DNA of 64,000 nucleotides. Origin: an uncultured Saprospiraceae bacterium (lineage in GTDB: Bacteria > Bacteroidota > Bacteroidia > Chitinophagales > Saprospiraceae). How positions within the stretch are numbered: the first letter of the stretch is position 1; each line of letters opens with the position of its first letter. The notes under the pieces are model-generated. The model ran no database searches, was not told the origin of the DNA, and saw only the letters and a list, made by a program, of their open reading frames with translations. Location of the stretch: assembly GCA_937959275.1 (NCBI GenBank), contig CALGLU010000036.1:62001-126000 (forward strand), given 5' to 3'. The translations under genes and the position numbers were made by a program. Positions 40,436 to 60,991 of this stretch are shown here, piece by piece.

Positions 40436-40482
40436 TGGAGCCTATCGGAATCGAACCGATGACCTCTTGACTGCCAGTCAAA
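40436..40482 (-). pseudogene. Displaced 3' half of tRNA-Ala (left attachment site)
   Basis: Read on the minus strand, this 47-base piece is an anticodon arm, T-arm (stem ATCGG/CCGAT) and acceptor 3' strand ending AGGCTCCA, with no 5' half. The last 22 bases (40461-40482) equal those of the intact tRNA-Ala at the right end. It is the host's original tRNA 3' end, displaced when the element integrated. Confidence 0.88.
40461..40482. repeat. attL core, 22-bp direct repeat
   Basis: Identical to 60943-60964. On the minus strand it is the anticodon stem-loop, TTGAC-TGGCA-GTCAA region, plus the start of the variable region. The palindromic anticodon arm is a usual crossover site for tyrosine recombinases. 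Confidence 0.9.
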
Positions 40483-40617
40483 AGATGGTCTTATTTCTTT
40501 AATTATCATATTATTTCATTTATCTTTATCAAGTGGTTGCACGTTCGATAAATTAAGGCTTTGCAATCAAAAAAATTATCATTGTATTTCATTATATGTC
40601 TTTTAGTGATTATGTTC

Positions 40618-40644
40618 ATGTATCAAATTATGTATCAAATTTTA
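40618..40644 (+). repeat. Left arm-type repeat, two TGTATCAAAT sites
   Basis: 27 bases with two tandem TGTATCAAAT units, one mismatch from 60849-60875, in the same orientation. It lies just upstream of the preferred integrase start. These are candidate arm-binding sites for the integrase N-terminal domain, 136 bases from the core. Confidence 0.75.
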
Positions 40645-40655
40645 TTTTCTGTAAT

Positions 40656-41909
40656 ATGAGTAACGCTACCATTTCAGTTTATCTAGACAAAAGAAGACTA
40701 CGGAAAAAAGATAATCTATATCCTATTCAAATTAGAGTGCATCATTTGGGTAAGCGAAAGTACTATGCTACTGGCTATAAAACCGACGAGATAACATTTG
40801 CCAAAATGTTTATGGGAGAAAAAGGAAACCTCAGTAGTACTAACAAAATTGTAAAGACCACCATTTTAAAAAACTCACTTGAAGGTGATGGAATCATAAA
40901 AGAGTTAGGAAACAAATTCACATTCTCACTATTTGATGAGTTATTCATTTACTCCAAGAAAAAGAGATATACTGTATTTGAAGCTTTTGCGAAGTACCAA
41001 GAGGAAAAAATATCAGTTTCCACCAAAGAAGGATATAAGGCAGCTTCAAACTCATTCAAGTTATTTTTAAAAGAAACTGGAAGAAACAAAACATTACATT
41101 TTCAAGATGTGACTGCTGATTGGATGCAAGAATATGAAGACTGGATGATATCAGAAGGTAAGTCATTATCTACTGTAGGAATCTATGCAAAATATATGCA
41201 AAGACTCTTCAGTAAATTCAATAAAATCAAAGGAATACAGCCATTTGGCAAAGACGAATATATTATCCCCTCTACCCTAAATATCAAAAAGGCATTGAAA
41301 GTTGAACAAATAAACTATATATATCACTTTCCTTGCGATAGTGGTAGCAATATGGAGTACTGTCGCGATATATGGGTTTACAGCTATCTTGCAAACGGAT
41401 GTAACATGAAAGACATTGCAGGTCTTAAATGGAAGAACTATGAAAATGGTAAGATTACATTTTACAGACAAAAGACGCGTAACTCAAAAAAGCGAAAATT
41501 AGCACCGATTGAAATTCTCCTTACAAAAGAGGCAAACGCTATACTTATGAAGTATTGTACAGACAATACAGACGATGAAGCCTATATACTCCCCATCTAC
41601 ACAAAAGACATGACACCTAAACAGAAACACGATAAAGTCAGACAAGAACTAAAGAATGTCCGAAAATGGATAAACAGAATATGGCAAAAGTTAGGCTATG
41701 AAGGAAAGATTGATTTCCAAGCGGCACGTCATAGCTGGGCATCAGTTTCAAGAAATGCAGGAGTTGACAAATCTTATATTAGTCAGGCTTTAGGCCATTC
41801 GTCGCAGCGAGTAACGGACTTATACCTTGATTCCTTCGAAGAGCAAAAGATTAAGGAGAATCAATCACATTTACTAGACACCACTAGAACATATTTGAAA
41901 GTAGTGTAA
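40656..41909 (+). CDS. int: Tyrosine recombinase / integrase (Bacteroidota SAM_5 type)
   Basis: 417 residues from the ATG at 40656 (MSNATISVYLDKRRLRKKDN). An upstream ATG at 40596 would translate the arm-site repeats and is disfavoured. The N-terminal arm-DNA-binding domain (VYLDKRR... YYATGYKTDEITF) is followed by a SAM-like core-binding domain (about 105-210), then the catalytic domain with KTRNSKKRKLAPIEI, Arg-His in FQAARHSWASVS, LGHSSQRVTDLYLDSF, and the terminal Tyr nucleophile in that last block. The first catalytic Arg is not obvious at the ANGCNMKDIAGLKW position, a known quirk of this family. It integrates and excises the element at tRNA-Ala. Confidence 0.9.
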   Translation: MSNATISVYLDKRRLRKKDNLYPIQIRVHHLGKRKYYATGYKTDEITFAKMFMGEKGNLSSTNKIVKTTILKNSLEGDGIIKELGNKFTFSLFDELFIYSKKKRYTVFEAFAKYQEEKISVSTKEGYKAASNSFKLFLKETGRNKTLHFQDVTADWMQEYEDWMISEGKSLSTVGIYAKYMQRLFSKFNKIKGIQPFGKDEYIIPSTLNIKKALKVEQINYIYHFPCDSGSNMEYCRDIWVYSYLANGCNMKDIAGLKWKNYENGKITFYRQKTRNSKKRKLAPIEILLTKEANAILMKYCTDNTDDEAYILPIYTKDMTPKQKHDKVRQELKNVRKWINRIWQKLGYEGKIDFQAARHSWASVSRNAGVDKSYISQALGHSSQRVTDLYLDSFEEQKIKENQSHLLDTTRTYLKVV

Positions 41910-42630: not shown

Positions 42631-42724
42631 TAATAAAGTACGGTGCGAAGTACGCGTACCATGATTCGCTAACATACGTTTTGATATAATTTTACTGTCA
42701 TTAGTAAACATTTAATAAAATATA

Positions 42725-42967
42725 ATGGCAAAGGAAGTTAAGTCACTCAAGCAAATCCACGAAGAATTCGACCTCTCACCCTCAAGACTCCATAAAGCGA
42801 CGATGCTTAATGAGTTTCCCTTTTTTAGGTTAGGCTCACAAAAAGTAGACGCTAAAAAAGATACTCGTAAAATCTTCGTGTTTAGGGATGACATCATAAA
42901 ATGGTTGACTCAGAATCGAGTCCCATCTAAGAGCGAGATCGAAGCTCAATCAGCAATCCCTGCGTAA
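42725..42967 (+). CDS. Small DNA-binding protein, excisionase/helix-turn-helix-like
   Basis: 80 residues: KSLKQIHEEFDLSPSRLHKA, then FPFFRLGSQKV and KIFVFRDDIIKWLTQNR. This is the layout of MerR/HTH_17-type phage excisionase and control proteins: a helix-turn-helix, a short wing, then an edge strand and closing helix. Its location between the integrase and replication operon fits an excisionase or transcription switch. It is followed by an intrinsic terminator. Confidence 0.6.
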   Translation: MAKEVKSLKQIHEEFDLSPSRLHKATMLNEFPFFRLGSQKVDAKKDTRKIFVFRDDIIKWLTQNRVPSKSEIEAQSAIPA

Positions 42968-43039: not shown

Positions 43040-43393
43040 ATGATAAATATACAACATTTATTTCTGTGTCTCCAAATGGCAGGAGACAAATCGCTCAAAG
43101 AGCATAGCACGGTTGACGGCCTAGCATCCCAAAAAGAGCCAATAGAATCTTTAAACTTGAGGCTCTCAGACATGCGCAACATAACTGCAAAATACAAGTC
43201 TGGAGCATATTCTTTCAGTGGTCGAATAGTTGCGACAGTGGAAAGTGCAACATCGTTTCTGTGTAACGGATGGCGTTGGTTAGTAGTGGTAGATGATCCA
43301 GAATTAGCAGCAATGCCTGAAGATGAAAAAGAGACAATCCTTGCAGTTGAACTTTATGATTTCCTTAATCGTAAAAAGTATATTACTCAATGA
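43040..43393 (+). CDS. Hypothetical protein, first gene of replication operon
   Basis: 117 residues; an internal ATG at 43076 (MAGDKSLKEHSTVDG) gives 105 and is equally plausible. It contains a small beta-rich region (YKSGAYSFSGRIVATVESAT, FLCNGWRWLVVVDDPEL) and is not recognised. The stop overlaps the next gene's ATG, so it belongs to the operon 43040-46044. Confidence 0.6.
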   Translation: MINIQHLFLCLQMAGDKSLKEHSTVDGLASQKEPIESLNLRLSDMRNITAKYKSGAYSFSGRIVATVESATSFLCNGWRWLVVVDDPELAAMPEDEKETILAVELYDFLNRKKYITQ

Positions 43394-44169
43394 TAGTTAA
43401 ATGGATAAAAGTCTCCGTGAATTTATTCGATGATGAGAAGATCAGACTAATCGAGGCAATGCCCGAAGCTGATGCAATACTCAATATATGGCTTAGATTA
43501 ATTCTTTTAGCAGGGAAGACTAACGACTCAGGACTCATTTATATGATGGATAATGTGCCGTATACAGATGAGATGCTTTCCACCTTATTCGATAAGAAAC
43601 TAAATATTATAAGGCTTGCAGTTGATGTGTTTGAAAAATTTGGCATGATTGAAATACAAGAAGATGGGAGTATACTTCTTAGCAATTTCTGCAAGTACCA
43701 AAACATTGAAAGATTAGAAGAAATAAAAGAGCAAAACCGACTTAGACAAGCAAAGTTTCGGGGCAAAGCAAAGCAGAAAAAGCAACTTAGTTCTGGCAGT
43801 GAAAAAGACGTAACGTTATCAGTAACGTTACCTAACGGAACAGATAAGAGTAAGATAAAGAATAAGAATAGTATATATAGTCGGGTTATAGATCATCTTA
43901 ATTCTAAGATTAAGACTAAGTATAGAACATCAACAAAAAAAACACAGAGTTTAATTCAAGCAAGATTAAATGAAGGATATAAGGAAGAGGATTTTATTAA
44001 AGTCATTGAAAATAAAGTGGAAGACTGGTATGACGATAATAAAATGTCGAAGTTCCTCAGACCATCAACTTTATTTGGGGACAATTTCGAGTCTTACTTG
44101 AATTCACCTAAGAAATCGAATGAGAATGAATCAGATTATATTAAACCATATCAAAAAGGCTCAGAATGA
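43390..44169 (+). CDS. Phage replisome organiser-like protein (DnaD-type N-terminus)
   Basis: 259 residues. The N-terminal 120 residues match the phage replisome-organiser pattern: VKWIKVSVNLFDDEKIRLIE, ADAILNIWLRLILLAGKTND, SGLIYMMDNVPYTDEMLSTL, then IEIQEDGSILLSNFCKYQ and a Lys-rich coil. The C-terminal third has KFLRPSTLFGDNFESYLN, the usual ending of phage replication proteins that recruit a helicase. It overlaps the helicase gene by four bases. Expected role: recognise the element's origin and load the DnaB-like helicase. Confidence 0.85.
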   Translation: MIVKWIKVSVNLFDDEKIRLIEAMPEADAILNIWLRLILLAGKTNDSGLIYMMDNVPYTDEMLSTLFDKKLNIIRLAVDVFEKFGMIEIQEDGSILLSNFCKYQNIERLEEIKEQNRLRQAKFRGKAKQKKQLSSGSEKDVTLSVTLPNGTDKSKIKNKNSIYSRVIDHLNSKIKTKYRTSTKKTQSLIQARLNEGYKEEDFIKVIENKVEDWYDDNKMSKFLRPSTLFGDNFESYLNSPKKSNENESDYIKPYQKGSE

Positions 44170-45443
44170 GAGAACAATCAATACATAGCATTGAAAAAGC
44201 ATTAATTGGTGGATTATATTTGAAAGCATCAGTTTACTTTGATCATCATAAGGAACTACATGTAGGATTATTTTCAAATGATAAAACTTTAAAGTTATTC
44301 AATGAACTAAAGCGAATCAGAGAATCTAATCGAAAACCAGAAATCATAAGCCTATCAGATAAACTATCAATACCTAGTGAATTTATTACTGACTGCACTA
44401 AAGAGTGGAGGTCAAAGCCAACTGAGTACATTGATGCTCTACAGTCAAATTTTCTTAAAGATCAGCTTTCAGGAATTCATTCAAATGCCGCTATGGAGAT
44501 TGAGAGTGGTACAGATCCAATAGAAGCGACAGAGAATGCAAGTAAGCAAGCAAATGAAATCATCGGAACTAATTTAAATGAAGATTGTGGTATCAAGGCG
44601 GCTTGTCTTGAGGCAATGGATGAGATTCAGGAAGCAAAAAATAATAAAGGAGTAGTTGGCATCAGTACGGGAACTGAAGACCTTGATGATATGATAGGTG
44701 GCTTTTGCAAAGGTGATCAAGTAGTCTTAGCAGCTCGCCCAGGCATGGGTAAAACGACACTAGCAGCTAACTGGTTAATTGAAGTTGCAAAGCAAGATAT
44801 ACCCGTCATGTTCTTTTCGTTAGAAATGACAAAGGCTCGCTTCATGCAAGTTTTGGCAGCTATCATTTCGGGTGTATCCACAAAGAAAATGAGAAACGGA
44901 GACATCACCGCAAAAGAAGATGGATTAATTCAAGATGCATTTGATTGGCTTTATCAGAAACCAATTTATATTTCTACCAGCTCCAGAACTATTGATCAAA
45001 TAATTGGATCAGCAAGATACTATGCCAGAAAGCATAATGTAAAAGTTTTCTTCTATGATTATATACAGATTTTTAAAGGTGGTGAAAAGGGCTGGAATAC
45101 TACCTATAGAATTGTCGACTACTCGCAAAGATTAAAAGCATTCGCTAATGACTACAAAGTTTCGAATGTAGTCCTGTGCCAAGTGAACAGAAGTGTAGAT
45201 AGAGATGGCAACAATTTAAAACCGAATCTAGCGCACATTAAAGATTCAGGAAGTATTGAGCAGGACGCCACTGCTGTTTTAATGATGTACCTCCCAGAAC
45301 CAAAGGAAAATCCCAACCTATTTCAGATCATCCTCAGAAAAAATCGATTTGGAGACAAGTCATCTCTGATGAGGCTTTGGGTGAAACGGAAATTTATAAT
45401 GACAGACCAGCTACCTACTAACGAAGAATCAACACCATTCTAA
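44166..45443 (+). CDS. DnaB-like replicative helicase
   Basis: 425 residues. The N-terminal helical domain (IEKALIGGLYLKASVYF) is followed by a RecA-type motor: GVVGISTGTEDLDDMIGGFC, Walker A near 193 (AARPGMGKTTLAANW), SLEMTKARFMQVLAA, Walker B region VFFYDYIQIFK, then SNVVLCQVNRSVDRD, LKDSG-type sensor DSGSIEQDATAV and a terminal RKNRFGDKSS. It should unwind element DNA. It is coupled to the organiser upstream and a small gene downstream. Confidence 0.92.
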   Translation: MREQSIHSIEKALIGGLYLKASVYFDHHKELHVGLFSNDKTLKLFNELKRIRESNRKPEIISLSDKLSIPSEFITDCTKEWRSKPTEYIDALQSNFLKDQLSGIHSNAAMEIESGTDPIEATENASKQANEIIGTNLNEDCGIKAACLEAMDEIQEAKNNKGVVGISTGTEDLDDMIGGFCKGDQVVLAARPGMGKTTLAANWLIEVAKQDIPVMFFSLEMTKARFMQVLAAIISGVSTKKMRNGDITAKEDGLIQDAFDWLYQKPIYISTSSRTIDQIIGSARYYARKHNVKVFFYDYIQIFKGGEKGWNTTYRIVDYSQRLKAFANDYKVSNVVLCQVNRSVDRDGNNLKPNLAHIKDSGSIEQDATAVLMMYLPEPKENPNLFQIILRKNRFGDKSSLMRLWVKRKFIMTDQLPTNEESTPF

Positions 45444-47662: not shown

Positions 47663-47851
47663 ATGACTTACACAACATCCCACTACATCAATCTACTTGA
47701 TGCGATAATATACGAGCTGATGATTGAGTATAACCAGTCAACCAACTTTGAAGAAAAAGAAACTATTGCAGCTTTGGCTGTTGAGTTGAAGGGGATAGTT
47801 ATTTATCGCTTGCTGGAGAAACACCCAAAACAACATCGGACTTATAGATAA
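47663..47851 (+). CDS. Hypothetical small protein
   Basis: 62 residues, helical (INLLDAIIYELMIEYNQSTN, EKETIAALAVELKGIVIYRL). It overlaps the 3' end of the convergent next gene by 53 bases. Regular composition and a clear start support it moderately. Function unknown. Confidence 0.45.
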   Translation: MTYTTSHYINLLDAIIYELMIEYNQSTNFEEKETIAALAVELKGIVIYRLLEKHPKQHRTYR

Positions 47852-48512
47852 ACTCTTCTTTGTCAAAATCTTCCTTATTGATGTCCTCAGACAGTTCCTT
47901 TTTAAAACTATCAATGAAGGTTCGGATTGTGTCGTCCTGTTCTTTGTGCATCATCTCGTTTGTTATAAAGGTTTTATAGACAGCCCATTCACCATTCATT
48001 TGTACATCTCCTAAAAGTAGACCGTTTTTTACTTTAGTCATTGTGTATAGAACGCCATCCTTTCCTTCTCGCGCTTTTCCCATTTGGGTAGGATTGTTAG
48101 TAAAAAAGTGTTTGACCTTCTCCAAAGGCTCATTAAGTCCGAGCGACATCCTTGTATTATACCTATTGAATAAGTGACCATTGTAAACAATTAGACCTTC
48201 ATTTGATGCAGGAATTTTGAGCACTCTAAGACCAATTTTACTAAAATAATAGGTGTATACAGTCCAAGCAATGGAATCTAATCCTTTGTATGAGTTTGAT
48301 GAAAGTGATTTATTTAATACTAATGTCCAGTTGTTCTTTAGCTTTGATTTAAAGCTGTGTGATTGGCTATAGCTTTTCTTTTTATCTATCTTATTCTTTC
48401 GTCTCTTTTTATCATAGTCCTTAACTATTCTATCTATTGAGTGTTGTATAGCTTGGTAATCTTTTACAACCTCAATGTAGACTTCTGAATCTGTCATTGT
48501 ATTTACTAGCAT
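47799..48512 (-). CDS. Hypothetical protein, lysine-rich N-terminus
   Basis: 237 residues. A coiled, basic N-terminal region (IVKDYDKKRRKNKIDKKKSY) precedes a compact alpha/beta domain (GLDSIAWTVYTYYFSKIGLR, NEGLIVYNGHLFNRYNTRMS, MGKAREGKDGVLYTMTKVK). No catalytic motif recognised. An in-frame ATG at codon 6 is an alternative start. It is the first of a minus-strand block of short element genes. Confidence 0.6.
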   Translation of the reverse strand: MLVNTMTDSEVYIEVVKDYQAIQHSIDRIVKDYDKKRRKNKIDKKKSYSQSHSFKSKLKNNWTLVLNKSLSSNSYKGLDSIAWTVYTYYFSKIGLRVLKIPASNEGLIVYNGHLFNRYNTRMSLGLNEPLEKVKHFFTNNPTQMGKAREGKDGVLYTMTKVKNGLLLGDVQMNGEWAVYKTFITNEMMHKEQDDTIRTFIDSFKKELSEDINKEDFDKEEFIYKSDVVLGVSPASDK

Positions 48513-49893: not shown

Positions 49894-50457
49894 CTATGCC
49901 GCAAGGATTCTTTCTATCCTTGCGCTTCTCCATCCATCAGCTGTGACGAACTTGATAACATCAGGCGTATACTTTGCTTCTGTCTTAGCCTTATACTCCG
50001 TAGCAAGCTTTAGAGTGGCATTAGCGATTCTTATCTCACCGCTTGTTTTTCTGAATTTCAAAGCGATTGTGCCACTTTTTAAAGCGTTGATGATTCGATT
50101 TCTTTTCCAAGCTGCCTTAAGAGCTTCGCTGAAAGTCTCGTATATGCCTTTATTGAAAAAATACCATGCATCTGTAAAAATCTGCGAACGGTTAACAGAA
50201 GCTTTTGCCTCTGTTGCTGGTAGTGGTAGATTCTGGAAGAATTCAGCGAAGTATCTATCTATCATTTCAGTAGGTAGAGTTGTTTCTGATTTGATTTGAA
50301 TTAGCTCGTCTGTCGTCAACCCTTCAAATGCTTTTGTCAGCTTCTTATTCTCGCTAAATCCCTCATCCCATGTTGATTGATTAGAATTCATTTCCCAATG
50401 GCAAGGAAAATTATTAAGTCTTTCTGTTAAGGTTTGAATGTTTGATGTGTTTTTCAT
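49894..50457 (-). CDS. DUF2693/SH3-like phage-type protein under palindromic operators
   Basis: 187 residues. The C-terminal part reads IFTDAWYFFNKGIYETFSEA, then ALKSGTIALKFRKTSGEIRI, a layout seen in Bacteroidota phage and mobile-element proteins (SH3-barrel, DUF2693-like), preceded by a helical domain. The start codon lies immediately beside three tandem palindromes, so the gene is almost certainly controlled by the regulator that binds them. Its own function is unknown; a regulator of the switch is one option. Confidence 0.6.
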   Translation of the reverse strand: MKNTSNIQTLTERLNNFPCHWEMNSNQSTWDEGFSENKKLTKAFEGLTTDELIQIKSETTLPTEMIDRYFAEFFQNLPLPATEAKASVNRSQIFTDAWYFFNKGIYETFSEALKAAWKRNRIINALKSGTIALKFRKTSGEIRIANATLKLATEYKAKTEAKYTPDVIKFVTADGWRSARIERILAA

Positions 50458-50532
50458 AGTATTATTTTTATACTACAATAATATAGTATTATTTTAATAC
50501 TAACAAGTATTTATAGTATTTATTTTATACTA
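50457..50532. promoter_or_regulatory. Three 19-bp palindromic operators between divergent genes
   Basis: The copies at 50457-50475, 50484-50502 and 50514-50532 each read TAGTATT-(5 T/A-rich bases)-(A/T)ATACTA. The middle copy is a perfect 7+5+7 dyad; the outer two are 6+7+6. Start-to-start spacing is 27 and 30 bases. The first touches the minus-strand start codon and the third lies just before the plus-strand -7-like box TATATTTG (50541-50548). This resembles a phage lysogeny-switch operator array. Confidence 0.8.
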
Positions 50533-50552
50533 TTTTTACGTATATTTGCTAG

Positions 50553-50792
50553 ATGAAAGTTTTTAAAACAAAAAAAGAAGCTATCCGCTATTGTATGGAT
50601 AGAATAAAGCCTTCAACTATAGGACTAGACAATTATAACAGATTCAGGCAGTTGAAAAAGAGGTATGAAGAAAATCCCGAATCGGTCAAAGATAATGCTA
50701 CAAAGAATCTTTTTAATGTATTTGGCATCTCAGAGAATTGCACCTATGAATTAGATGAATCAAAGGCAGAATACAACCAGAAACAAGATTGA
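50553..50792 (+). CDS. Hypothetical small protein, divergent from operator array
   Basis: 79 residues, charged and helical (FKTKKEAIRYCMDRIKPSTI, FRQLKKRYEENPESVKDNAT). The start is four bases after a TATATTTG -7-like box, so the message may be leaderless. Its stop overlaps the next start. Likely an early gene of the element, regulated by the three palindromes. Function unknown. Confidence 0.6.
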   Translation: MKVFKTKKEAIRYCMDRIKPSTIGLDNYNRFRQLKKRYEENPESVKDNATKNLFNVFGISENCTYELDESKAEYNQKQD

Positions 50793-51244
50793 AACTACTT
50801 ACTTACATAAACACCATCATTAAGCTTGAGCCAAACACAATTAGCAATAATGCAAAATTGGTGTTGATCTATATGATTAGCAATTGTGATGAGGCTGGAA
50901 TATGGAAGGTAGACAAAGAAGCCTACTATCAAAGCTTTGGTATGAAGTATTCTAAAGAATGGATATTGTTAGGACTTGGTTTCTGGTTAAAGTATTTAGA
51001 CGAGGACAGAATCATTATTCCTGAATTTCTTCAACACAGATACGCAGGGCAATTGAAGAACATCAACAACACAAAATATAACCCTCTAAATAAGCTTCGA
51101 GCTTGTATCGATTCGCATAGTCTAAAATTCGATGCTGAAAAGATGCAATTAATACCCCGTTCAACGGTTGAATCAACGGTTGAATTAGCGACGATAGCTG
51201 AAAAGATGACTATTGATGCCACTCAGAGCAAAAAAGTCGCTTAG
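50789..51244 (+). CDS. Winged-helix-like replication/control protein
   Basis: 151 residues starting at TTG 50789, overlapping the previous stop. The N-terminal 90 residues (AKLVLIYMISNCDEAGIWKV, KEWILLGLGFWLKYLDEDRI, IIPEFLQHRYAGQLKN) match the winged-helix start of phage replication or helicase-loader proteins; the C-terminus is Ser/Thr/Val-rich. There is no catalytic site. Moderate support. Confidence 0.55.
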   Translation: MKLLTYINTIIKLEPNTISNNAKLVLIYMISNCDEAGIWKVDKEAYYQSFGMKYSKEWILLGLGFWLKYLDEDRIIIPEFLQHRYAGQLKNINNTKYNPLNKLRACIDSHSLKFDAEKMQLIPRSTVESTVELATIAEKMTIDATQSKKVA

Positions 51245-51293
51245 AGGGCTTATATTTAAAGCCTTGATTTCTCCTAAGATTCAATACATATAT

Positions 51294-51322
51294 TATATAT
51301 ATTGTATATATTGTATATATAT
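51294..51322. repeat. A/T-only tandem repeat
   Basis: TATATATTGTA / TATATTGTA units. It is a strongly AT-rich, easily melted stretch upstream of the accessory genes at 51362 and 51658. Possibly a promoter or unwinding element; no proof. Confidence 0.45.
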
Positions 51323-51442
51323 TAAGATTTTGTTATATATTTAAGGTAAGCAATTTTCTACTTGAGAAAGTTGTTTATATGGATCGATGGCATTACATTT
51401 GCAATCCTTTATTTATTACTTACTTACTTAATTCTGCTGGTG

Positions 51443-54516: not shown

Positions 54517-54738
54517 ATGATTCACTTTCAATCTTATACGTGGTTTACTGTAGCAGAAGTTGCTCAAAAATTACAACTAAGCAGGAAGACTATCTATAAA
54601 CTTATTGAACGAGGCGAATTAGCGTCAGAAAGAAAATTCAATCGTGAAATGATAAGTGAGTCAAGTCTAGTTAATTACTTGACACCAAAAAATAAATCGG
54701 TTAATCATTCACTTGAGGCTCTACAATCTACAAGGTAG
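54517..54738 (+). CDS. Excisionase-type helix-turn-helix protein (HTH_17)
   Basis: 73 residues with the classic pattern WFTVAEVAQKLQLSRKTIYK, then LIERGELASERKFNREMISE: helix-turn-helix, wing, and closing helix. Such proteins serve as excisionases or small regulators. It starts four bases after TAATTTTG (54505-54512), a -7-like box. It heads the plus-strand packaging-type run. Confidence 0.8.
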   Translation: MIHFQSYTWFTVAEVAQKLQLSRKTIYKLIERGELASERKFNREMISESSLVNYLTPKNKSVNHSLEALQSTR

Positions 54739-56922: not shown

Positions 56923-57101
56923 TGACACAACAAGATTTTGACAAGAAGTTTGATGTTTTCATCAATGAGCTTTATAAAGACGATCCTACAGGAAAAGAGA
57001 AATTAGTTTCTAAGGCTATAGATAGGCTAATAGTAGAAGACAAGAAAAAGAAGCTGGTGCATGACAGAATTTCAAGGAAGAAGAGAAAACAAAAAAGATA
57101 A
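56922..57101 (+). CDS. Small basic protein linking the Cys-rich gene to terminase genes
   Basis: A 59-residue frame (MTQQDFDKKFDVFINELYKD ... RKKRKQKR). The ATG overlaps the preceding stop by one base (TAATG) and its stop overlaps the next start the same way. This double overlap argues strongly that it is translated. Helical acidic start, very basic end. Function unknown; possibly a DNA-binding packaging accessory. Confidence 0.6.
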   Translation: MTQQDFDKKFDVFINELYKDDPTGKEKLVSKAIDRLIVEDKKKKLVHDRISRKKRKQKR

Positions 57102-57646
57102 TGGCAGAACGCAAAAACATTCAAGAAACAACACTAAACAAATACAAGCTTTGCATAGACGAATACTATGCTAATGGCTTCAAACCTAAAGACGCTTATC
57201 AAGCTATCTACAAGGATGCAAATGATAATACGGCTAACAATATGATGTCTAAGATTATTAAGCTTCCACAAATGCAGCTTTATATAGAGCAGAAGAATGA
57301 AATACTTAGGGCAGAATCAGAGCATAGGAGGTTGAAGCTTAGAGGTGTTTTAGAATCTTGGATAAATGCAGATGTAACACAAGCTCTTTGCTTGAGTGCA
57401 GATAAAATCAAAGAACTACCAGAAGAAGTCCGAAAGCTAGTTACTGGATTTGAAACTAGCAAAACCACATTTGGAAATGATAACGGTGCGACTGGAGAAA
57501 AGGAAACGATTAAGCTTCGATTCGTATCTAAGGAGAAAGCAGCCGATTTACTATCAAGGCATTACGGAATGTTTAAAGCTGACAATGAGCAACAAAGCAA
57601 TAAAGTAACAATTGTAATCGAGGGAGACAGCGAAGATTTAGACTAA
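57101..57646 (+). CDS. Terminase small subunit-like protein
   Basis: 181 residues. N-terminal helix-turn-helix-like repeat region (YYANGFKPKDAYQAIYKDAN, NMMSKIIKLPQMQLYIEQK), a central helical part, and a C-terminal end with EKAADLLSRHYGMFKADNE, as in Terminase_2 small subunits. It is directly followed (zero bases) by the large subunit, the usual arrangement. It should recognise packaging-site DNA. Confidence 0.75.
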   Translation: MAERKNIQETTLNKYKLCIDEYYANGFKPKDAYQAIYKDANDNTANNMMSKIIKLPQMQLYIEQKNEILRAESEHRRLKLRGVLESWINADVTQALCLSADKIKELPEEVRKLVTGFETSKTTFGNDNGATGEKETIKLRFVSKEKAADLLSRHYGMFKADNEQQSNKVTIVIEGDSEDLD

Positions 57647-58918
57647 ATGAAGATTCATTTACCACCATTACATGCAAGCCAAAAAGAAGTGAATCGTAAT
57701 AAGAAGCGGTTCAACGTACTTTCGTGTGGCCGACGTTATGGCAAAAATGAATATGGTGTTCGTAAAGTTTTAGGTACACTGATTAAAGACAATAGTTATG
57801 TAGGCTGGTATGAGCCAACGTATGATAGTAGCACCCAGCAATGGAAAGATTTTGTAAACCTTTTAGAACCTATCACAGAGAGTAAGCATGAATCTTTCAG
57901 AAACCTTTACTTAGCCAATGGTTCAAGACTTGATTTCTGGAGTTTGAAGAATATCAATGCCTCAAGAGGTCGCAAGTATCACAGAGTTGTAATAAATGAA
58001 GGTGCTTTTATCCCTCGACTTACTGAGGCATGGCAACAGACAATACAACCTACTTTATTAGATTATACAGGAGACGCCTTTTTAATGTCAACACCAAAAG
58101 GAACTGACAACGATTGGTATTCATTTTATCAGAAAAAAGGTCAAGAAGATTGGGCAGTGTTTGATCTGCCTACCAGCGCAAACCCCTTGATGCCTAAAGC
58201 AGAAATAGAACGGCTAAGAAGGACACTGCCAGACAATGTTTTTCAACAAGAGTATGAAGCTAAGTTTATCGATTTCAATGCTGAGAGATTCTTTTGGGGT
58301 TACGCTGATGATCAGCATTATACAGATGAAGAATTTGACTTTATCAAAACAGAACCAGTCTGGATTAGTTTTGACTTCAACTATGAGCCTTGCGTCTGTA
58401 CTGTCTACCAAGTAGTGCCAGGCTTTGGTATTTATGGCATGAGAGAATTTGAGGCCATAGGTGGGACACGTGAACTTTGTAAGGTCATTAAGGAGTCAGA
58501 CCTAATGACAGTAGATCGTGGGTTATGGCTTGTAACTGGTGACAAGTCGGGCACTTCAAAAAGTGCAGTTAGTGGTCATGTAAATAACTTTGATATACTT
58601 CAAGATGAATTAGGGTTAAGGGATGATCAAATTATAAATACAGAGGGTAGGAATAGGAGTCACGAATATAGCAGAACCTTGTGTTGTGAGTTTTTCTTTA
58701 GTTGCCCCTTCTGGATGGATAAGCGTATGATTAAGCTGCGTAATGATCTAAAAAGAGCAAAGCCAAACCAAGCAGGGAAGTTACATAAGAATAGAGGTGA
58801 AGGCTATCCAATGGATCATGCAGATACATTCCGCTATTTTGTAGATGGTAAGTTTTGGCACGGCCCTAATAGCATTAAACAATTTGCTAGTGAGTGTGTC
58901 AATAGTAAAGCAGCATAA
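57647..58918 (+). CDS. Terminase large subunit with atypical ATPase motifs
   Basis: 423 residues. The N-terminal ATPase has a Walker-A-like motif LSCGRRYGKNEYG (Lys33 followed by Asn34 instead of Ser/Thr) and a Walker-B-like motif RVVINEGAFI (Asn117-Glu118 instead of Asp-Glu). A coupling-motif-like LMSTPKGTDNDWY follows. The C-terminal nuclease looks intact: Asp in WISFDFNYEP, Asp in LVTGDKSG, and the MDHADTFRYFVDG pair. Large subunits package DNA into capsids using ATP and cut it. The length is near the lower family range. The ATPase changes are described as a finding. Confidence 0.8.
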   Translation: MKIHLPPLHASQKEVNRNKKRFNVLSCGRRYGKNEYGVRKVLGTLIKDNSYVGWYEPTYDSSTQQWKDFVNLLEPITESKHESFRNLYLANGSRLDFWSLKNINASRGRKYHRVVINEGAFIPRLTEAWQQTIQPTLLDYTGDAFLMSTPKGTDNDWYSFYQKKGQEDWAVFDLPTSANPLMPKAEIERLRRTLPDNVFQQEYEAKFIDFNAERFFWGYADDQHYTDEEFDFIKTEPVWISFDFNYEPCVCTVYQVVPGFGIYGMREFEAIGGTRELCKVIKESDLMTVDRGLWLVTGDKSGTSKSAVSGHVNNFDILQDELGLRDDQIINTEGRNRSHEYSRTLCCEFFFSCPFWMDKRMIKLRNDLKRAKPNQAGKLHKNRGEGYPMDHADTFRYFVDGKFWHGPNSIKQFASECVNSKAA

Positions 58919-60875: not shown

Positions 60876-60917
60876 GTATTATATAAAGTTGTAATGTATA
60901 ATTAATTGATTATCAAG

Positions 60918-60991
60918 TGGAGCCTGGGGGAGTCGAACCCCCGACCTCTTGACTGCCAGTCAAACGCTCTAGCCAACTGAGCTAAGGCCCC
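60918..60991 (-). tRNA. tRNA-Ala (anticodon GGC), intact and hosting the element
   Basis: 74 bases, minus strand. Acceptor GGGGCCT / AGGCTCC with discriminator A, D-arm GCTC...GAGC, anticodon stem TTTGA / TCAAG with loop CTGGCAG (anticodon GGC, reading GCC/GCU, Ala), and T-arm GGGGG-TTCGACT-CCCCC. CCA is not encoded. The 3' half was supplied by the element; the original half now lies at 40436-40482. Confidence 0.95.
60943..60964. repeat. attR core, 22-bp direct repeat
   Basis: Identical to 40461-40482; here it is the anticodon arm of the intact tRNA-Ala. Confidence 0.9.

Follow-up and report, generated by a model that had tools for sequence, protein, structure and literature searches.

A cluster of three 19-bp palindromes that lies between two divergently transcribed genes of a mobile element is probably an operator whose three sites are bound by a 79-aa protein, the product of the gene at its right edge; operator and putative repressor would form one unit. 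All coordinates without a prefix refer to the window, which is the whole stretch of 64,000 nucleotides of Saprospiraceae DNA that was analyzed. The three dyads, to which no strand applies, all read TAGTAT-N7-ATACTA and occupy positions 50457-50475 (dyad 1), 50484-50502 (dyad 2) and 50514-50532 (dyad 3). They are exact 6+7+6 dyads that span 76 bases overall, with start-to-start spacings of 27 and 30. A sequence-only reading of this DNA had described the same three dyads, one touching a start codon and one beside a -7-like box, and these details proved to be exact. The start codon is that of the leftward gene (CAT at 50455-50457), and its first base, 50457, is included in dyad 1.

Chance and repetition were considered as sources of the cluster. 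Three exact dyads of one kind with 6-bp arms were not found in any of 1000 dinucleotide shuffles of the 101 bases from 50455 to 50555. Likewise, none of 1000 shuffles attained the observed number of sites with 6-bp arms, either exact or with one mismatch, which rules out chance AT-rich palindromes. Across the 144 contigs of the assembly (6,787,850 bases), the exact motif is restricted to the three sites of the array; this rules out a genome-wide simple repeat. When up to one mismatch is allowed, the assembly contains 19 sites including the three of the array, compared to 53 for a reversed-pattern control, and the near-matches therefore represent background. With up to three mismatches, 56 sites are present in the window against an ordinary expectation of 51.0, and three sites were attained in 39 of 1000 shuffles of the gap when 5-bp arms and one mismatch were permitted, so that only the perfect cluster is meaningful. 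Within the element, no additional exact or one-mismatch site was detected outside the array, and a three-mismatch match at 42702-42720, directly before the ORF at 42725, is at chance level; control of early or replication genes is therefore unsupported. Judged by its sequence, the array of three palindromes is real and is built like an operator region.

Bacteroidota promoters carry a TTG element at -33. On the minus strand of the gap, a -33-like CTTG (50504-50507) is located 20 bp from a -7-like box, TATTATTG (50476-50483), which has one mismatch to the Bacteroidota -7 consensus TAnnTTTG as described in PMC9723704. This box consists of exactly the 8 bases that separate dyads 1 and 2; dyad 1 is found between the box and the leftward start codon, and dyad 2 occupies 19 of the 20 spacer bases of the promoter-like TTG-N20-TATTATTG. 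On the plus strand, a -7-like box TATATTTG (50541-50548) starts 8 bases past dyad 3 and ends 4 bases ahead of the start codon (ATG) of the 79-aa gene, and a scripted search for a TTG at the -33 distance of this rightward promoter found none. The relative on contig C73 (see below) likewise has a TATATTTG box 4 bases before the ATG of its small gene. Toward the leftward gene, a script detected a TTG followed after 20-21 bp by a TAnnTTTG-like box (at most one mismatch), with a dyad in or largely over the spacer, in 4 of the 5 loci that are compared below, locus G1121 being the exception. Both promoters of the window are predicted from sequence, and the result of a sigma-70 scan of the gap was at chance level (4 found, 2.1 expected). 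The location of the array within promoter-like sequences, together with palindromes in the same gap of relatives, lends good support to the earlier proposal of an operator array in a divergent control region.

The leftward gene (49894-50457, minus strand), which is the proposed repressed target, encodes a 187-aa protein with a C-terminal WYL_2/SH3 barrel (PF10902, phrog_1086), hereafter the SH3 protein. Its match to PF10902 (E 9e-07, 29.5 bits, cut-off 26.7) identifies a domain of the WYL superfamily, and phrog_1086, which it matches with E 1e-09, carries the PHROG label 'unknown function'. No HTH was present among its Pfam matches, and its structure model is poor (pLDDT 54), the fold matches of which were set aside. 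The rightward gene (50553-50792, plus strand) encodes the 79-aa protein, the proposed cognate DNA-binding autorepressor. This protein had no match in Pfam, PHROG or PADLOC, and no DNA-binding family was matched by the small protein in family searches. A structure model based on a two-sequence alignment is helical with a middling pLDDT of 72.5. Fold searches of the PDB with this model gave no significant match, the weak best one being chain 7ab3_D of a HipBST complex (Z 3.5, rmsd 3.6, 61 aligned), and sequence searches of the PDB gave no usable match. The next ORF (50789-51244, plus strand, 151 aa, no family match) overlaps the 3' end of the 79-aa gene, provided that its TTG start is correctly assigned, and the two are probably co-transcribed. 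Overlapping AT-rich palindromes (TATATATTGTATATAT) behind this ORF, at 51279-51324, mark a possible origin or regulatory site. In the leftward cluster, 47799-48512 encodes a 237-aa protein whose PADLOC match to LmuB is weak (E 5e-4, over a short stretch).

The mobile element extends from 40461 to 60964 (approximately 20.5 kb) and is bounded by a 22-bp direct repeat, the copies of which are located at 40461 and 60943, the right copy within tRNA-Ala(ggc) (60917-60991). Family searches identified an integrase (40596-41909), a replisome organiser (43390-44169), a DnaB helicase (44166-45443), and the small (57101-57646) and large (57647-58918) subunits of a terminase. No match to capsid or portal genes was obtained with Pfam and PHROG among the 20 ORFs of this element that were scanned, nor among the scanned ORFs of the related elements described below.

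Relatives were sought by two routes. A collection of species genomes was scanned for two nearby exact TAGTAT dyads, which yielded 14 stretches, and 4 viral stretches were added. Only 1 of these 18 two-dyad stretches (L015) contained relatives of either protein (tblastn, E 0.01); it stems from a Saprospiraceae MAG (genome G645, contig C73) and has homologues of both genes, likewise divergently arranged. In profile searches of 395, 298, 395, 297 and 305 genomes (partly overlapping sets), the small protein revealed seven credible small-protein loci in six genomes, the window and C73 included. A divergent SH3 partner is present in five of the seven, namely the window, C73, C90 (also in G645), G1121 and G1098. 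All four relatives of the divergent pair have palindromes in the corresponding gap; they reside in three other genomes, each in an element that carries an integrase. C73 was detected by means of the motif itself, and its dyads are not an independent sample; C90, G1121 and G1098 were found through the small protein alone, and their gaps contain palindromes in 3 of 3 cases, with sequences other than that of the window. The gap of C73 has two exact dyads and one one-mismatch dyad of the TAGTAT type, that of C90 three GTAAACATTTTGTKTAC palindromes, that of G1121 three GTAWC-N5-GTTAC palindromes, and that of G1098 two GTACAACTTGTAC palindromes (two sites, not three). By eye, a GTA...TAC core is common to all four operator types.

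Shuffles of these gaps (1000 each) gave results that depended on the arm length. For C73, no shuffle reached the observed number of sites with 6-bp arms, exact or with one mismatch, and 2 did so with 5-bp arms. For C90, the count was 0 with 6- or 5-bp arms and one mismatch, and 405 with exact 6-bp arms. For G1121, which has no site with 6-bp arms, it was 0 with 5-bp arms and one mismatch. For the two sites of G1098, it was 0 with exact 6-bp arms, 3 with 6-bp arms and one mismatch, and 106 with 5-bp arms. The C90 operator occurs three times in G645, always inside the C90 array, and the exact TAGTAT motif twice in the C73 array and once elsewhere (C24:7121). The third site of the C73 array has one mismatch, a level at which the 22 sites in G645 represent background (20 in the control). 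One additional GTACAANTTGTAC is found in G1098 outside the array, at C85:15050.

An integrase was recognized by Pfam in all five elements, although in C73 only the SAM-like domain reaches the cut-off. The att-like repeats delimit elements of approximately 7.8 kb for C73 (L050:1441-9277) and 9.7 kb for C90 (L035:7492-17182), the latter overlapping tRNA-Met. Both elements encode replication genes, and C90 in addition encodes both terminase subunits (PHROG: small, E 1e-41; large, E 5e-10). No att repeat was detected for G1121, and the limits used for the elements of G1121 and G1098 are guesses. From their gene content, the elements of the window, C73 and C90 look like satellites or reduced prophages. 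The other two small-protein homologues, in G877 (C56, L036) and G1225 (C36, L043), are 71% identical to each other and have no SH3 neighbor and no evident array in the DNA that was read (for G877, approximately 180 bases upstream). A tRNA-Leu is located upstream of the G1225 gene, and in both genomes a related ORF beginning MAF-TTGTLHK is found two and three genes on from the small gene. This small protein is perhaps a domesticated regulator.

Besides L015, six of the 18 two-dyad stretches were read by eye and rejected: L005, L021 and L024 are apparently tandem or low-complexity repeats, and L004, L006 and L007 hold other palindromes. In L007, an unrelated viral contig, three TAGTATAAAAATGATACTA dyads (1365-1429) are flanked by the start of an 88-aa ORF and by the end of a 115-aa ORF whose product appears winged-helix-like by eye, which constitutes a similar palindrome array in an unrelated setting. 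Three small proteins had no match in a phage collection, and one had none in a plasmid collection. Small-protein and SH3 queries found no relative in IMG/VR by scans that need short conserved words and can miss distant relatives. Phage records gave 574 matches to the SH3 domain of C73 and 3 to that of the window, and in two of these records the matching gene lies on the same strand as all of its displayed neighbors. L009 and L010 show only partial matches to the SH3 protein. Weak matches to L026-L028 (E 0.002-0.008), of which two lie in frames of about 700 aa and one runs across stops, were not accepted, nor was the partial match to G1298 (E 2e-4), which runs across a stop.

Two comparisons among the five paired loci show which of the two proteins the operator follows. 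The window and C73 share the TAGTAT operator, and their small proteins are 59% and their SH3 proteins 41% identical. Dyad 1 and the matching C73 site are identical across 19 bp, and the gap DNA aligns with a z of 9.0 with and 7.6 without the start codons. C73 and C90, which belong to one genome bin (G645), have SH3 proteins that are 83% and small proteins that are 36% identical, with operators of the TAGTAT type in the former and GTAAACATTTTGTTTAC in the latter. Blastn homology between them comprises, at 89%, the SH3 gene and the gene that follows it. It begins in the last two bases of dyad 1, and no match was obtained over the remaining gap or the small gene; the two gaps align slightly above shuffled DNA (z 4.1 with and 3.0 without start codons). 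C73 and C90 differ in other genes too, their integrases being 25% identical. Near-identical segments, including one for a 112-aa protein (98% identical), were also seen between divergent ones. As judged by these alignments, C73 and C90 are mosaics, and the mosaic exchange is one inside a single genome bin.

The small and the SH3 proteins are the only families linked across all five elements (blastp, E 1e-3, with the bounds of G1121 and G1098 guessed). In Mantel tests, gap similarity correlated with small-protein identity (r 0.66, reached in 4 of 120 permutations) to a larger extent than with SH3 identity (r 0.21, 41 of 120). Spearman coefficients over all 10 pairs were 0.54 for SH3 (p 0.11) and 0.35 for the small protein (p 0.32), neither being significant and that for SH3 being higher, and over the 6 pairs without G1098 they were 0.49 for the small protein and -0.49 for SH3, again without significance. 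The gaps of the window and G1121 align with a z of 5.5 although their small proteins are only 33% identical. This, together with the z of 3.0 for C73 and C90, implies that common promoter boxes or composition also contribute to gap similarity. Since the Spearman result is non-significant and runs against the Mantel result, and since the window and G1121 do not match the trend, the conclusion rests on the contrasts of the window with C73 and of C73 with C90, which carry most of the covariation in a sample of five paired loci in all. In both contrasts the operator follows the small protein and not the SH3 protein, and for this reason the small protein, which has no family match, is likely the cognate autorepressor of the array. 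The earlier reading had considered neither neighboring gene an obvious repressor. The comparative evidence now points to the product of the gene at 50553, which that reading had nonetheless listed among its candidates.

It is unlikely that the array is bound and regulated by the SH3 protein, whether by itself or together with the small protein, in the manner of WYL transcription factors. Such a role would fit the WYL_2 domain, which belongs to a superfamily linked to transcription regulators in PMC4012209, as well as the position of the gene, which abuts dyad 1, the presence of the protein in all five paired elements and the higher, but non-significant, ten-pair Spearman coefficient. Yet the SH3 proteins of C73 and C90 are 99% identical in their C-terminal and 66% in their N-terminal halves while the operators differ, and those of the window and C73 are only 49% and 34% identical over the respective halves while the operator is shared. 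The window copy also has no Pfam HTH, and its G1121 relative merely has a weak DBD_HTH match (E 0.18).

Sites for a replication initiator, or origin iterons, are a very improbable identity for the palindromes. AT-rich repeat arrays are typical of replication origins, and the elements with the array encode replication proteins, but in 4 of 5 loci the palindromes are embedded in promoter-like sequences, and the initiator gene of the window is 6-7 kb from the array. Moreover, the replication proteins of the window and C73 match over 59 aa only (blastp) despite the same type of site, and G1121 has a VapE/primase-type protein instead and still has palindromes. The chances are also slim that another regulator binds the array, either host-encoded or encoded elsewhere in the element, such as the HTH_17 protein at 54517. 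Mobile elements do not always encode a regulator beside its operator, and HTH_17 proteins are also present in G1121 and G1098; against this, a single host regulator would not explain two operators in two elements of genome G645, and blastp (E 1e-3) links the HTH_17 ORF of the window to no ORF of the other four elements.

The assignment of the array to the small protein invites comparison with known control regions. In lambda, OR lies between cI and cro. As in lambdoid immunity regions, the window has several putative operators between divergent genes, and these overlap both promoters, which are predicted here, the rightward one without a -33 TTG. In such regions, as in the heteroimmune Gifsy prophages (PMC3121763), repressor and operators differ together between related elements, for which the present counterpart is C73 versus C90, one mosaic pair among five loci. 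In contrast to lambdoid phages, no CI/Cro-type repressor was detected, the small protein of 66-79 aa having matched no known family; no operator was found at the replication-operon promoters of the window element; and the second gene encodes a WYL_2/SH3 protein. Because neither a CI/Cro family match nor another operator in the element was found, the locus is not classed as a phage immunity region, although by analogy the array may work somewhat like one. The likeness to an immunity switch noted in the sequence-only reading is thus retained in that operator and small gene change together, but not in the placement of operators elsewhere in the element.

The SaPI regulatory region has a divergent layout. 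With SaPIs and other PICIs, the control regions of which involve Stl (PMC6695447, PMC6092414), the present loci share a small integrative element with integrase and replication genes, terminase genes in the window and C90, and a divergent regulatory region. The window element combines att repeats, an integrase and replication genes with no structural genes among the scanned ORFs, as a PICI does. It differs in that no Stl-type repressor was recognized and that the palindrome array is located beside a protein of no known family. With the WYL-domain transcription regulators of PMC4012209, the locus shares the WYL-superfamily domain of the leftward 187-aa protein, but no N-terminal wHTH was found in this protein, and the comparative evidence makes its gene the controlled one rather than that of the binder.

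In the mechanism that we propose, dimers of the small protein would bind the dyads. Occupancy of dyad 2, in the -33/-7 spacer, and of dyad 1, at the start codon, would shut the leftward promoter of the SH3 gene, and occupancy of dyad 3 would allow the small protein to limit its own rightward promoter. Relief of repression would then switch on the SH3 gene and the genes behind it. Operator and repressor gene would evolve and be transferred together, so that related elements residing in one cell keep separate specificities. More tentatively, the 79-aa protein might be the founder of an undescribed family of compact repressors that governs the WYL_2/SH3 genes of small integrative elements resembling satellites, probably in Bacteroidota, and that switches specificity by wholesale exchange of repressor and operator; the WYL_2/SH3 protein or its operon partners could then be the effector, possibly with an incoming or helper phage as its target. 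The locus offers a candidate regulator of fewer than 80 residues without a family match, with four natural operator types in five loci, and the C73/C90 pair in one genome represents a natural swap test. If the proposal is true, it would add a new regulator family and an immunity-like module for small integrative elements that have replication genes, sometimes terminase genes and no recognized capsid genes, and it would provide a handle on what WYL_2/SH3 proteins (phrog_1086) are switched on to do.
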